From assembly GCA_015058275.1 (NCBI GenBank), contig SVCQ01000022.1, positions 1-37,499 on the forward strand: DNA of 37,499 nucleotides, in the 5' to 3' direction. The notes beneath the pieces were generated by a model. The model ran no database searches. It saw only the letters and a program-made list of their open reading frames with translations, and had not been told where the DNA came from. Every line of letters begins with the position of its first letter. Position 1 is the first letter of the stretch. Positions 9,339-19,862 of this stretch are shown here, piece by piece. Both the position numbers and the translations under genes were made by a program. The stretch comes from Clostridiales bacterium. Its GTDB lineage: Bacteria; Bacillota; Clostridia; Peptostreptococcales; Anaerovoracaceae.

Positions 9339-9418
9339 TGTCATCCTGAGCGCAGCGAAGGATCTCGAGGAATCGGATGGCTGAGATCCTTCGGTCGCTA
9401 CGCTCCCTCAGGATGACA
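9339..9418. repeat. Inverted pair of short intergenic repeats (REP-like)
   Basis: The left unit 9339–9366 begins TGTCATCCTGAGCG and ends GAAGGATCTC. The right unit 9383–9418 is its complement with a longer middle (GGTCGCTACGCTCC). Together they can fold into one long hairpin directly after the gdpP stop, which may also stabilise the mRNA end or terminate it. Confidence 0.8.
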
Positions 9419-9440
9419 AAACAGTATCGGATGACAGTAA

Positions 9441-9545
9441 TGTCGTCCTGAACAAAGTAGTTATCGAAGGAGCTCAGCCTCCGAAGATCAATGCTTTCAT
9501 CATTACGGCAACGCCGTTATGAACGAAGAAAGCATTTAGGATCTC
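9441..9545. repeat. Composite structured repeat, copy 1
   Basis: The ends match the short REP unit (TGTCGTCCTGAAC… at the left, TTTAGGATCTC at the right), but the middle carries about 75 extra bases. Those form a small hairpin (CGAAGG/CCTCCG, one mismatch), an outer stem AATGCTTTC/GAAAGCATT and an inner stem ACGGC/GCCGT. Two further copies flank the DnaD-like gene. Confidence 0.8.
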
Positions 9546-9557
9546 ACGGAGCAGTAC

Positions 9558-9585
9558 TGTCATCCTGAGCGCAGCGAAGGATCTC
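9558..9585. repeat. Short REP-like unit
   Basis: This is an exact repeat of the 28-bp unit at 9339–9366, including the CGCAGCG variant, in the same orientation. It lies 23 bp before the rplI start. Confidence 0.8.
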
Positions 9586-10092: not shown

Positions 10093-11454
10093 ATGGACGA
10101 AGAAAGAAAAGAGGTGCTTCTGCCTCCAACAGACATAGACGCGGAGAAGGCGGTGCTGGGATCCATGCTCAAGAATCAGGATGCCAGGGCCGACGTCAGC
10201 GCGCTCTTGAGGGGCGAGGACTTCTATCTCAGAGAGCACAAAGAGATATTTGAGACCATGCTCGACATGGATCGCAAGGGCACGGGCATAGACATCACGA
10301 CCGTGTACTCCGCGCTCAAGCAGCGCAAGACCTCGGACATGGTCGGCGGCATGACATACTTAAGCCGCCTCATGGACGAAGCCATCGTGCCTTCGAATGC
10401 GCGCTACTACGCCGAGACCGTCTCGGACAAGTCCAAGATGAGACAGCTCATCAATGAGGCCGAGGTCATTCGCGATGCGGCCTACACTCAGGAGCTACCT
10501 CCGGAGGACATACTCGACAACGCCGAGCAGAGGATACTCGAGATCGCACACAAGGCCCAGCGCACGAGCTACGTCCCAGTAGGCGATGTACTAATCGAGA
10601 ACATCCGCCAGCTTCAGGAACTCGAAAAGAACGGCAACGACAAGGGCATCCCGACAGGCTTCAGGGACGTCGACAAGATACTCGGAGGCTTCCAGAAGAC
10701 AGACCTCATCATACTCGCGGCCCGTCCGGGCGTAGGCAAGACGGCCTGGGCCCTCAACGTGGCGGAGCATGCCGCATCGATAGGTAAAAAGGTAATGGTC
10801 TTCAGCCTTGAGATGGCCAACACTCAGCTCGGCGAGAGACTTCTCTCGATGACTTCGAGCGTTCCTCTCGAGCACATCCACAAGGGCGAGATCAGCGCTG
10901 ACGAGTGGGAGGATCTGAGCGAGGCCCAGGAGAGCTTCTACGGACTCGACATGGCGATCGACGAGACTTCCGTCATCACGCCTGTAGAGATGAAGAACAA
11001 ATGCCGCCGCTTCAAGCAGGAGAAGGGAGACCTCGACCTCGTGGTCATCGACTACCTCCAGCTGATGAGCATGGGCGGATACAGGATAGAGCAGAGAGAA
11101 AAGGAGATCGCGGCGATCACAAGGTCGATCAAGATCATGGCCAAGGAGCTCAACTGCGCGGTCATACTCCTCTCCCAGCTCTCAAGAGGACCGGAGCAGC
11201 GCGGAGGCGATCACATGCCGAAGCTCTCAGACCTGAGAGACTCCGGAGCGATCGAGCAGGACGCGGACGTCGTCATCTTCCTAAAGCGTGACGACTACTA
11301 CAGCTCGGAGGACGAGAGGGCCAACATCGACGACAGCACGGGACTTACCTGCGCGGTCAACATAGCCAAGCACAGGAACGGTCCTGTCGGCATAGCCAAC
11401 CTCACATGGATCCCGAGATACGTCAAGTTCGGCAACATGGCCCGCGAGCAGTAG
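10093..11454 (+). CDS. dnaB: Replicative DNA helicase DnaB (DnaC in Bacillus nomenclature)
   Basis: This hexameric helicase unwinds DNA at the fork. The 453-aa protein has the N-terminal domain (DIDAEKAVLGSML, DFYLREHKEIF), a linker helix, and a RecA-like domain with Walker A ARPGVGKTAWAL (about residue 209), VFSLEMA, Walker B DLVVIDYLQLM and the LSQLSRGPEQR and LSDLRDSGAIEQDAD motifs. Length is typical. TTG 10081 is possible, but ATG 10093 gives the usual N terminus; neither has a clear Shine–Dalgarno. The next gene encodes a DnaD-like, probably loader-related, protein. Confidence 0.97.
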   Translation: MDEERKEVLLPPTDIDAEKAVLGSMLKNQDARADVSALLRGEDFYLREHKEIFETMLDMDRKGTGIDITTVYSALKQRKTSDMVGGMTYLSRLMDEAIVPSNARYYAETVSDKSKMRQLINEAEVIRDAAYTQELPPEDILDNAEQRILEIAHKAQRTSYVPVGDVLIENIRQLQELEKNGNDKGIPTGFRDVDKILGGFQKTDLIILAARPGVGKTAWALNVAEHAASIGKKVMVFSLEMANTQLGERLLSMTSSVPLEHIHKGEISADEWEDLSEAQESFYGLDMAIDETSVITPVEMKNKCRRFKQEKGDLDLVVIDYLQLMSMGGYRIEQREKEIAAITRSIKIMAKELNCAVILLSQLSRGPEQRGGDHMPKLSDLRDSGAIEQDADVVIFLKRDDYYSSEDERANIDDSTGLTCAVNIAKHRNGPVGIANLTWIPRYVKFGNMAREQ

Positions 11455-11458
11455 AACC

Positions 11459-11560
11459 GTCATCCTGAACGAAGTAGTTATCGGAGGAGCTCAGCCTCCG
11501 AAGATCAATGCTTTCATCATTACGGCAACGCCGTTATGATTAGGAAAGCATTTAGGATCT
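11459..11560. repeat. Composite structured repeat, copy 2
   Basis: Same element as 9441–9545, beginning GTCATCCTGAACGAAG four bases after the dnaB stop. Here the first hairpin is perfect (TCGGAGG/CCTCCGA). The outer stem AATGCTTTC/GAAAGCATT and inner stem ACGGC/GCCGT are conserved. 11455–11773 holds only repeats and the next gene's leader. Confidence 0.8.
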
Positions 11561-11577
11561 AATAGAACCGGATGAAT

Positions 11578-11613: not shown

Positions 11614-11635
11614 GAAGGGAGTAGGATGACAGCAC

Positions 11636-11739
11636 TGTCATTCTGAGCGAAGCAGTTATCGGAGGAGCTCAGCCTCCGAAGATCAATGCTTTCATCATTA
11701 CGGCAACGCCGTTATGACTAGGAAAGCATTTAGAATCTC
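11636..11739. repeat. Composite structured repeat, copy 3
   Basis: Third copy, same orientation as copies 1 and 2, with end variants TGTCATTCTGAGCG and TTTAGAATCTC. Its left end carries GAGCGAAGC as in the short unit, showing the short and composite forms are related. All internal stems are intact. Confidence 0.8.
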
Positions 11740-11773
11740 ACAGATCTCATAGAGTAATTAAGAAGAGAAGTGA

Positions 11774-15596: not shown

Positions 15597-16016
15597 TTGT
15601 CCGATCAATTCATACACAGTGCAGATACAAAGGAGCCTGATCTCGACTTCACCTACAGCGAGGAGGACCTCGCTGCGAGGATAGATGAGAGGCGCCGCTT
15701 CATGCAGGCGAGGAAGACACGCAACAAGAGGATCATGATCATCCTGCTCGTGCTGGCCTTCGCTTTGCTTGCGACCATGTGCGGCAAGGACATAGTCCGA
15801 CTCAAGGCCGAGAACAGAGCGCTCAAAAAGCAGCAGATCGCTCTCCAGAAGGAGCGCGATGAGCTCAAGGCCGAGCTCGAGAACACCAGCGAGCAGGAGT
15901 ACATAAGAGACCAGGCCCGCAGGCAGCTGAGGCTTTTAAATCCGGGAGAGCTGCTCTTCATCTTTGATGATGAGGGCGCGTCCGGCGCCGAAGGCGGTGA
16001 GAGCAGTGGACAGTAA
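15597..16016 (+). CDS. divIC: Septum formation initiator, DivIC/FtsL family
   Basis: DivIC-type proteins are bitopic membrane proteins of the divisome that pair with FtsL and FtsQ/DivIB. The 139-aa product has a short charged cytoplasmic N terminus, a transmembrane helix at about residues 44–62 (IMIILLVLAFALLATM), and an extracellular coiled coil (VRLKAENRALKKQQIALQKE). The family's conserved end follows: IRDQARRQLRLLNPGE. The start is TTG 15597 with GGAGG seven bases upstream; no better ATG exists. The gene overlaps the RNase M5 gene. FtsL versus DivIC cannot be separated with certainty by sequence alone. Confidence 0.85.
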   Translation: MSDQFIHSADTKEPDLDFTYSEEDLAARIDERRRFMQARKTRNKRIMIILLVLAFALLATMCGKDIVRLKAENRALKKQQIALQKERDELKAELENTSEQEYIRDQARRQLRLLNPGELLFIFDDEGASGAEGGESSGQ

Positions 16017-16650
16017 GCTCTCACTCAGCCGCGCGATAGTGGTCGAGGGCAGGGACGATGTGGACGCGGTATCGCGCGCTGCGGACGCGCTGATCATACC
16101 GACCCACGGCTACGGGATCACAGCGGAGACCTGGGCGGTCATAGCCAAGGCGTATGAGGAAAAGGGCCTGGTCATACTGACTGACCCCGACCATGCCGGA
16201 GAGCAGATCCGCCGCAAGCTGACAGAGAAGTTCCCGGATGCCGTGCAGGCGTATGTATCCCGAGAGGATGCGACACTCGCGGATGACATAGGAGTCGAGA
16301 ACGCATCGCCGGAAGTGATAAGAGAAGCACTCGAAAAGGCACTGGCAAGAGTAGCTGGCTCAGGGGACAGGTCCCTGGGCCAACCCGGATCATTTGGCCC
16401 AGGGACCTGTCCCCTGAGCCAGTCACGTCATCCTGAGCGAAGCGAAGGATCTCGGCTGGACATCAGGACTCTGACGGAGCTGGGGCTTGCCGGCAGCGAG
16501 GGAGCCTCGGAGCTGAGAGCCGCGGTCTGCAGGGAGCTCGGCATAGGCTACGGCAACGCCGGAGCGATGGTAAAGAAATTAAGAGGATTCGGTATAGATA
16601 CAGATGAGCTCAGGGAAGCGGTCAAAAAAGTCAAAAAGCAAACACGTTAA
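16006..16650 (+). CDS. rnmV: Ribonuclease M5 with an in-frame palindromic insertion
   Basis: RNase M5 makes the final cuts that mature 5S rRNA in Firmicutes. GTG 16006 is chosen because AAGGCGGTG lies six bases upstream and it gives a normal N terminus before VVEGRDD; earlier ATG codons at 15967 and 15970 lie within divIC. The TOPRIM domain has the catalytic Glu of VVEGRDD and the Asp pair of ILTDPDHAG. The C-terminal DUF4093-type domain is at about 151–214 (LGIGYGNAGAMVKKL). Residues 118–150 (GSGDRSLGQ…[10 protein letters not shown]) are encoded by a repeat element at 16355–16453. Removing these 33 residues leaves 181 aa, the usual family size, and the insertion falls in the interdomain linker. 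The gene overlaps rsmA by 47 nt, its normal partner. Confidence 0.92.
   Translation: MDSKLSLSRAIVVEGRDDVDAVSRAADALIIPTHGYGITAETWAVIAKAYEEKGLVILTDPDHAGEQIRRKLTEKFPDAVQAYVSREDATLADDIGVENASPEVIREALEKALARVAGSGDRSLGQPGSFGPGTCPLSQSRHPERSEGSRLDIRTLTELGLAGSEGASELRAAVCRELGIGYGNAGAMVKKLRGFGIDTDELREAVKKVKKQTR
16355..16453. repeat. Long perfect inverted repeat plus REP-like unit inside rnmV
   Basis: Arms 16355–16383 and 16394–16422 are a perfect 29-bp inverted repeat with a 10-bp spacer; each arm contains the smaller palindrome GGGAC-AG-GTCCC. A REP-like unit (16427–16453, GTCATCCTGAGCG … GGATCTC) follows, matching the intergenic copies elsewhere in the window. Together they add 99 bp without breaking the reading frame. 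Confidence 0.9.
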
Positions 16651-17500
16651 AAGGGAGTTCAGGGGCAGGCCTGCGAGCCTGGCCGGGGTCAGGCCCGACA
16701 AGAGGCTCGGACAGAACTTCCTCATAGACGATGAAGTTATCAATAGGATAATCGATGAGAGCGGAGTGACGGACAAGTCGCTCGTGCTCGAGATCGGGCC
16801 CGGGACGGGCGCCCTCACCCTGCCGCTGGCGGAGAGGGCCGGCTATGTAATAGCCGTCGATCTCGACCCCGAGATGATCGAGGGCCTCAGGATCAAGACC
16901 TTCGGCATGGACAATGTCGAGCTGATCCTCGGGGACATACTCGAGGAGGACATCCGGACCATAACGCATAACGCCATGGAGGAGCACGGCCTCGATGAGC
17001 TCCGCATCATCGGAAATCTACCTTACTATATAACCACCCCTATCATCATGAAGCTGCTCGAGGCCGGCACAGGCGCAAAGAGCATAACGGTGATGATGCA
17101 AAAGGAGGTCGCGGACCGCATAGCGGCTGAGCCGGGCACAAGAGCCTCGGGTGCGATCACCTATCAGGTTCACTACCACGCCACAGTCACAGAGATAATC
17201 GACGTACCACGCGAGTGCTTCTACCCGGTACCGGGTGTGGACTCGGCGGTACTGAGGCTCGATCTCAGAGACGAACCGGCCGTATCGGTCAGAGACGAGA
17301 AACTGCTCTTCGACTGCGTCAAGGCGGGGTTCTCGATGAGGCGCAAGACGCTGGGCAATTCGCTGGCGGCGCTTCACAACTACGACAAACAAACACTGTC
17401 TGAGGCGCTCGAGGCCGCGGGCATAGACCCGGGCCGCAGAGCCGAGACTCTGAGCCTCGAGGAATTCGCAAGGCTCGCAGACAGTTTGCAGGAGGCATGA
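16604..17500 (+). CDS. rsmA: 16S rRNA (adenine1518/1519-N6,N6)-dimethyltransferase RsmA (KsgA)
   Basis: RsmA dimethylates two adenines in helix 45 of 16S rRNA late in 30S assembly. The 298-aa protein has DKRLGQNFLIDDEVINRI near residue 32, the SAM motif LEIGPGTGALTLPLAE, VDLDPEM, the N6-adenine methylase motif NLPYYITTPI and the C-terminal helical domain (FSMRRKTLGNSL). ATG 16604 gives a basic N-terminal tail (KRSKKSKSKHVKRE) of about 30 residues and a 47-nt overlap with rnmV. No internal start gives a better fit. The stop overlaps the next ATG by 4 bp. Confidence 0.96.
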   Translation: MSSGKRSKKSKSKHVKREFRGRPASLAGVRPDKRLGQNFLIDDEVINRIIDESGVTDKSLVLEIGPGTGALTLPLAERAGYVIAVDLDPEMIEGLRIKTFGMDNVELILGDILEEDIRTITHNAMEEHGLDELRIIGNLPYYITTPIIMKLLEAGTGAKSITVMMQKEVADRIAAEPGTRASGAITYQVHYHATVTEIIDVPRECFYPVPGVDSAVLRLDLRDEPAVSVRDEKLLFDCVKAGFSMRRKTLGNSLAALHNYDKQTLSEALEAAGIDPGRRAETLSLEEFARLADSLQEA

Positions 17501-19648: not shown

Positions 19649-19676
19649 TGTCATCCTGAGCGAAGCGAAGGATCTC
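19649..19676. repeat. Short REP-like unit
   Basis: 28-bp copy in the GAGCGAAGCG variant, 20 bp after the stop of the preceding gene. A partial copy of its first eight bases (TGTCATCC) lies just before, at 19636–19643. Confidence 0.8.
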
Positions 19677-19834: not shown

Positions 19835-19862
19835 TGTCATCCTGAGCGAAGCGAAGGATCTC
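19835..19862. repeat. Short REP-like unit
   Basis: Same 28-bp sequence and orientation as 19649–19676, ending 25 bp before the rho start codon and just upstream of its ribosome-binding site. Confidence 0.8.

Follow-up and report, generated by a model that had tools for sequence, protein, structure and literature searches.

The gene for RNase M5 (rnmV) in the window, by which we mean the whole stretch of 37,499 nucleotides that was analysed, carries within its reading frame a composite of two unrelated repeat families, namely an inverted pair of REP1 units and a REP2 unit. The best reading is, very probably, a neutral in-frame insertion of REP sequences comparable to the Rickettsia palindromic elements (RPEs). 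The window is contig C7 of a 1.82-Mb draft genome (36 contigs; 82.8% complete), referred to below as G000 and considered together with its congeners, 47 genus genomes in all. The features of the window are collected in Table 1.

A first-pass annotation had described a perfect 29-bp inverted repeat followed by a REP-like unit, lying in frame in the linker between the TOPRIM and C-terminal domains of RNase M5, and had added that their removal restores the usual length of the family. Most of this holds (the anatomy, the frame and the position in the linker); the restoration of family length does not. The arms of the inverted repeat (16355-16383 and 16394-16422) are 100% complementary and enclose a loop of 10 nt. 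It is the only perfect repeat among the 25 listed of 51 inverted pairs; three other listed pairs are 30-34 nt long, but their complementarity is just 71-74%. Folded as DNA, its 68 nt reach -40 kcal/mol, compared to -12.72 (sd 2.2) for 200 shuffles (z -12.4), and it far exceeds chance. Three bases separate it from the REP2 unit, 27 nt of which match the window copies at 19650 and 19836 at 100%. Rfam gave 0 matches in the window, and the 99-bp stretch had no match in plasmids and phages. A candidate target-site duplication seen by eye, GCTGG at 16354-16358 and 16455-16459, was discarded, its spacing of 101 not being divisible by 3, and inspection by eye around the insert revealed none compatible with the frame.

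Table 1. Repeat units and genes of the window, with the evidence for each
Feature	Position	Strand	Basis
REP2 unit between genes	9340..9366	+	pattern match; gene calls
REP2 unit between genes	9559..9585	+	pattern match; gene calls
DivIC-type septum formation gene, upstream of rnmV	15597..16016	+	PF04977
rnmV, RNase M5, 214 aa	16006..16650	+	GTG 16006 start assumed; overlaps end of DivIC-type gene
Codons 117-150 of rnmV, repeat-encoded part of TOPRIM/C-terminal linker	16354..16455	+	ends approximate
REP1 inverted pair, BIME-like	16355..16422		perfect 29-bp arms, 10-nt loop; fold
REP1 unit, left	16356..16382	+	alignment of 17 units
REP1 unit, right, inverted	16395..16421	-	alignment of 17 units
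REP2 unit, CGTC end, core GCGAAGC	16426..16453	+	pattern match, fold, unit alignment
rsmA (ksgA)	16604..17500	+	TIGR00755, E 1.2e-73; ATG 16604 start
REP2 unit between genes	19650..19676	+	pattern match; gene calls
REP2 unit between genes	19836..19862	+	pattern match; gene calls

The rnmV product matches TIGR00334 in two stretches (E 3.1e-28; 99 bits). This score lies below the NCBIfam equivalog cut-off of 110.65, as do those of 10 of the 26 congeners with an RNase M5 match. Both domains of the enzyme are found, Toprim (residues 10-82) and DUF4093 (residues 146-206), with the insert located between the two matches. In the alignment to the solved RNase M5 6tpq, the aligned stretches stop at chain residue 111 and restart at 123, so that the insert sits in the interdomain linker. 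According to the ORF list, the frame stays open through the inverted repeat and the REP2 unit alike; only one of the three forward frames of the 99-bp stretch is open, and this is the frame in use. The end of rnmV overlaps rsmA by 47 nt, given the start of rsmA in Table 1.

The interdomain linker is the only junction of RNase M5 whose length varies by at least 5 residues among the 26 congeners, and its sequence diverges widely among them; the repeats are absent from all 26 linkers. In the window protein it measures 43 residues, compared to 15-31 (median 22.5) in the congeners. Without the 33 repeat-encoded residues only 10 would be left, fewer than in any of the 26, and the whole product would shrink to 181 aa, compared to 186-207 aa in the congeners (trimmed to the query start). 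It is here that the claim of a restored family length fails, 181 aa being usual only against more distant genomes (177-190 aa). Because the 10-residue remainder is shorter than all congener linkers, native codons were probably replaced, not just interrupted, and a clean insertion into the linker appears unlikely. As judged from these comparisons, the native linker may have been replaced in one event, or the linker of this lineage may already have been short. No empty site was found for the insert at the nucleotide level, and its length of 99 bp is approximate.

The insert in rnmV is one of several. The palindromes were also found inside other genes of the same genome, at four further in-frame sites in three genes, so that 5 of the 31 REP sites of G000 lie in frame within four genes, with coding signal on both flanks. 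A rough gene caller, run on G000 only, places these 5 inside genes and the other 26 between genes, 22 of them between genes of the same direction. The window has four other REP2 units that match the 24-base pattern with 0 mismatches, and all of them lie between called genes, in line with the first-pass description. Besides rnmV, the host genes encode a nitrogenase-component-1-type oxidoreductase (PF00148), in which one REP2 and, separately, one REP1 pair are found; an ABC transporter (PF00005), which carries three REP1 units; and a hydrolase of the metallo-beta-lactamase fold (PF12706), presumably YycJ-like, which carries REP2. A longer inverted variant beside REP2, encoding DSSVATLPQND-like peptides, was noticed by eye in the hydrolase gene (L098 2902-2925), and the same type of variant occurs in non-genic stretches (L051 1994-2488; L053).

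The codon models behind these assignments were trained on few genes, and the first run included parts of the tested genes in its training; a second run, with three untested window genes as the only G000 training material, returned the same five G000 sites. Seven other copy-spanning ORFs (131-604 aa) matched 0 Pfam families each, and the remaining copy-spanning ORFs were dropped as hosts on coding signal alone. Copies before the metK, PilT-like and DegT-like genes were taken, by eye, as lying upstream of the true start; the metK domains start at residue 52. Clear coding signal on both sides was seen at 0 of the 35 REP2 sites of congeners (31 in G033 and 4 in G021, some REP sites of both being close to contig ends). 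Under a laxer limit, one G021 site falls in an 81-aa ORF scoring 0.06 and 0.01, which was counted as non-coding. The contrast with the congeners is soft: 5/31 versus 0/35 gives p 0.019, or p 0.09 when the doubtful G021 ORF is counted, and REP2-bearing sites alone give 3/23 versus 0 or 1/35 (p 0.057 or 0.29). The idea that REP1 is intragenic more often than REP2 was rejected (3/9 versus 2/22 sites; p 0.13).

Each of the 5 inserts touches a junction whose length differs among congeners by at least 5 residues. Such junctions make up 0.6-1.5% of each protein (oxidoreductase 4, ABC transporter 6, hydrolase 4 and RNase M5 1), as defined on alignments that included the G000 row and, from fetched loci only, 19, 24, 29 and 26 congeners, respectively. 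The repeats are absent from the same linkers in the congeners aligned, i.e. 19 of the 37 matching ones for the oxidoreductase, 29 of 45 for the hydrolase and 24 of 46 for the ABC transporter; the REP1 pair of the oxidoreductase occupies the place of other sequence of similar length.

One may ask whether RNase M5 has put the peptide encoded by the repeats to use as a functional extension, as the in-frame position of the insert and the length of the linker would permit. This seems very improbable, not only in view of the diversity of congener linkers: forward REP1 starts in phase 0 in rnmV, in phase 1 in the oxidoreductase and in phase 2 in the ABC gene, while the peptide encoded by REP2 is HPERSEGS in both rnmV and the hydrolase but VILSEAKDH in the oxidoreductase. 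Three reading frames are thus used for REP1 in as many genes, and two for REP2, so that no common peptide has been conserved. The use of several REP1 frames, together with the use of the one open frame, is what the survival of harmless insertions predicts. That the insert is an artefact of assembly or binning is hardly credible. Hairpins are hard to assemble and the draft is fragmented, but each REP1 pair has its own loop, REP1 is spread over five contigs and the host frame is kept at five sites.

REP1 is a 27-nt palindrome, present in 17 units at 9 sites of the draft. Inverted pairs 2-14 nt apart are found at 5 of the 9 sites, and the members of a sixth pair are 57 nt apart; two pairs share arm sequence. 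REP2, a 28-nt hairpin with (C/T)GTC at one end, has 24 units in the draft (at most 3 mismatches). Reversed-pattern controls gave 0 matches for either family. REP1 occurs in 1 of the 47 genus genomes, being absent from the 46 congeners, and REP2 in 3 (at most 2 mismatches: 23 units in G000, 31 in G033 and 4 in G021). Stem, tag and tail of REP2 were counted over 61 units (at most 4 mismatches). TG or CG stands before the TC columns in 57 of the 61 (T in 59, C in 59), and the stem starts with a paired AT (A-T in 59, T-A in 61). One stem pair is C-G in 43 units and T-A in 18, both sides always being changed, and the other four pairs show three broken cells and one double change. This covariation fits a conserved hairpin, although the 18 T-A units may come from few events. 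The loop is GNA, where N is A in 29 units, C in 24 and T in 8, and the 3-nt tail is CTT in 32, CTC in 20, CTA in 4, CCT in 3, CAC in 1 and CCC in 1; none of the 61 ends in CCA. The window REP2 folds as DNA into 5 bp, a 2x2 G/A internal loop, 2 bp and a 3-nt loop, with an energy no better than that of shuffles (79 of 200 equally good); GCGAAGC is an unusually stable DNA mini-hairpin.

No consistent tag was found in REP1; GTAG, which adjoins the window copy and one unit of contig C35 among those listed, was set aside as inconsistent. Nor was a RAYT found in the draft, at its completeness of 82.8%. The only Y1 transposase match (L008 1252-2972, on contig C24 of G000) adjoins an OrfB_IS605 gene, forming an IS605-type pair, and RAYT was rejected as the mover on this ground. 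REP2 lies within 500 nt of 2 of the 9 REP1 sites, a number reached in 120 of 20,000 uniform placements. Such proximity is not expected from independent random insertion; the same few places may tolerate insertion, or one repeat may attract the other. Searched by exact match in IMG/VR, the REP1 19-mer gave 0 stretches and the REP2 24-mer 65 (L240-L304), which means that REP2 is spread far beyond the genus. A literature search with repeat and peptide strings gave no match.

A further repeat, about 110 nt long, is present in the window (9436-9549, 11453-11566 and 11631-11744; also L048 1394-1423). It has internal stem-loops and REP2-like ends, and REP2 may have arisen from this longer element. 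The ends of the long repeat are TCATCCTG/AGGATC and TCATTCTG/AGAATC, its RNA folds have z values of -2.3 to -4.4, it has no Rfam match in the window, and a 30-base piece of it recurs on contig C22.

An action at the RNA level was also considered: in the rnmV-rsmA message, the 29-bp hairpin might be a target of RNase III or an obstacle to ribosomes, so that one or both genes would be expressed less. As RNA, positions 16340-16470 fold at -84.8 kcal/mol, compared to -49.06 (sd 4.39) for shuffles. In B. subtilis, according to an excerpt of PMC3542257, rnmV is carried on one message with ksgA, and depletion of RNase Y raises the amount of this message about 8-fold. We hold such an action to be quite improbable as the explanation of the insert: REP1, the hairpin looked for in the 46 congeners, is found in none of them and is thus not a conserved control element.

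Of the 47 genomes of the genus, 27 have a detected RNase M5 (11 of 18 among the better genomes) and 20 do not. Among the latter are G026, G002, G065 and G024 (completeness 87, 79, 76 and 97%), which group with the window genome with support 0.98 in a three-protein tree limited to genomes with fetched loci (G033 and G021 are among those missing from it). A second group of 14 genomes in this tree is likewise devoid of detected RNase M5. With the window protein as query, 20 of the 24 genomes searched from other families yielded an RNase M5, the best segments being 39-54% identical, and divergence alone is therefore an unlikely reason for the misses within the genus; as 4 of these 24 genomes miss it too, its absence is not peculiar to the genus. 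On this tree, RNase M5 has apparently been lost more than once in the genus, and, since four grouping genomes lack a detectable enzyme, rnmV is probably under weak constraint. Excerpts of two reports bear on the need for the enzyme: a Listeria rnmV deletion has wild-type growth on plates at low temperature (PMC12774634), and RNase M5 is missing from many Mollicutes (PMC4014445).

The same distribution could mean that this lineage is losing rnmV: the repeats would have hit a gene no longer needed, and the copy that carries them would have little activity or would not be produced at all. We regard this as possible yet unlikely. The reading frame of rnmV is unbroken, conservation extends to the TOPRIM motifs EGRDD and TDPDHAG and to the C-terminal domain, the coding signal of the codon model persists on both sides of the insert (0.26 and 0.19), and three other genes likewise carry repeats in frame.

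Neutral in-frame insertion has precedents. Like the palindromic elements of Rickettsia (above all RPE-4, RPE-6 and RPE-7) and of Wolbachia, the repeats described here are multi-copy palindromes, some of them in frame in proteins, with orthologs that lack the repeat. According to an excerpt of PMC3767692, RPE-4, -6 and -7 share an ATGAC motif and sit at possible hotspots; the GTCAT end of REP2 is the complement of this motif, whereas REP1 is without it. The likeness to Rickettsia seen at first pass is borne out by the further in-frame sites, the repeat-free congener linkers and this GTCAT end. The repeats differ from RPEs in that 26 of the 31 sites lie between genes, and while the same excerpt describes insertions at the same places in orthologs, the aligned orthologs here are free of repeats.

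A second precedent is that of the intragenic GTAG- and CGTC-tagged REPs of Di Nocera et al. (2013), which likewise occur as singles and dimers inside ORFs. In the excerpt of that source (PMC3733652), over half of them are dimers or groups, by which 20-30 residues are added, and the insertions may be neutral where linkers are flexible; the CGTC families are assigned to five named phyla, Firmicutes not being one of them, and neither Firmicutes nor clostridia are mentioned in the excerpt; and repair genes hit in many species are doubted as chance targets, a kind of gene to which none of our four host genes belongs. The CGTC superfamily is characterised by a stem of 8-9 bp, a loop of 4-5 nt and a 3-nt tail that is mostly CCA. 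REP2 shares the (C/T)GTC tag and the AT start of the stem but not the tail and, because the tail is never CCA, we call it CGTC-like and do not place it in families 1-4. REP1, lacking a consistent tag, stands apart from GTAG and CGTC REPs; in its closely spaced inverted pairs it resembles BIMEs and REPINs, although no RAYT accompanies it in the draft as in REPIN-RAYT systems.

Neutral insertion can be pictured as follows. Two small hairpin repeat families without coding capacity inhabit the genome, mostly between genes, and may move by a transposition-like route, no transposase for it having been found. A REP1 pair and a REP2 unit would have settled in the interdomain linker, the sole place at which the length of RNase M5 varies, and some of the native codons there were probably lost in exchange. 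Translation of the gene probably continues, giving a protein of 214 residues, about 33 of them repeat-encoded, in which the insert would form a longer flexible tether between domains that presumably remain active. The insert would owe its persistence to the little harm that it does, given a linker tolerant of very different sequences, and presumably also to a weak need for RNase M5 in this lineage; its open frame would in addition spare the overlapping downstream rsmA, if the two genes are coupled.

The conversion of repetitive DNA into protein through in-frame hairpin repeats is an already known route. To it our data add a genome, presumably that of a clostridial Bacillota, outside the groups named in the excerpts of the literature cited on such repeats. 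A broader view is tentative and, in our opinion, improbable as a whole: that REPs without a transposase of their own land in length-variable linkers, or survive nowhere else in proteins, in a lineage outside the known ones, as a standing source of new linker sequence, the rnmV insert being a snapshot of RNase M5 decay in a clade with several losses. The four host genes, with five sites and 19-29 aligned orthologs per gene, offer a compact test set. The genus data also point to RNase M5 having been lost repeatedly within a single genus. Taken together, the alignments suggest that what decides the survival of an insert is the linker that it hits, not the peptide that the repeat happens to encode.
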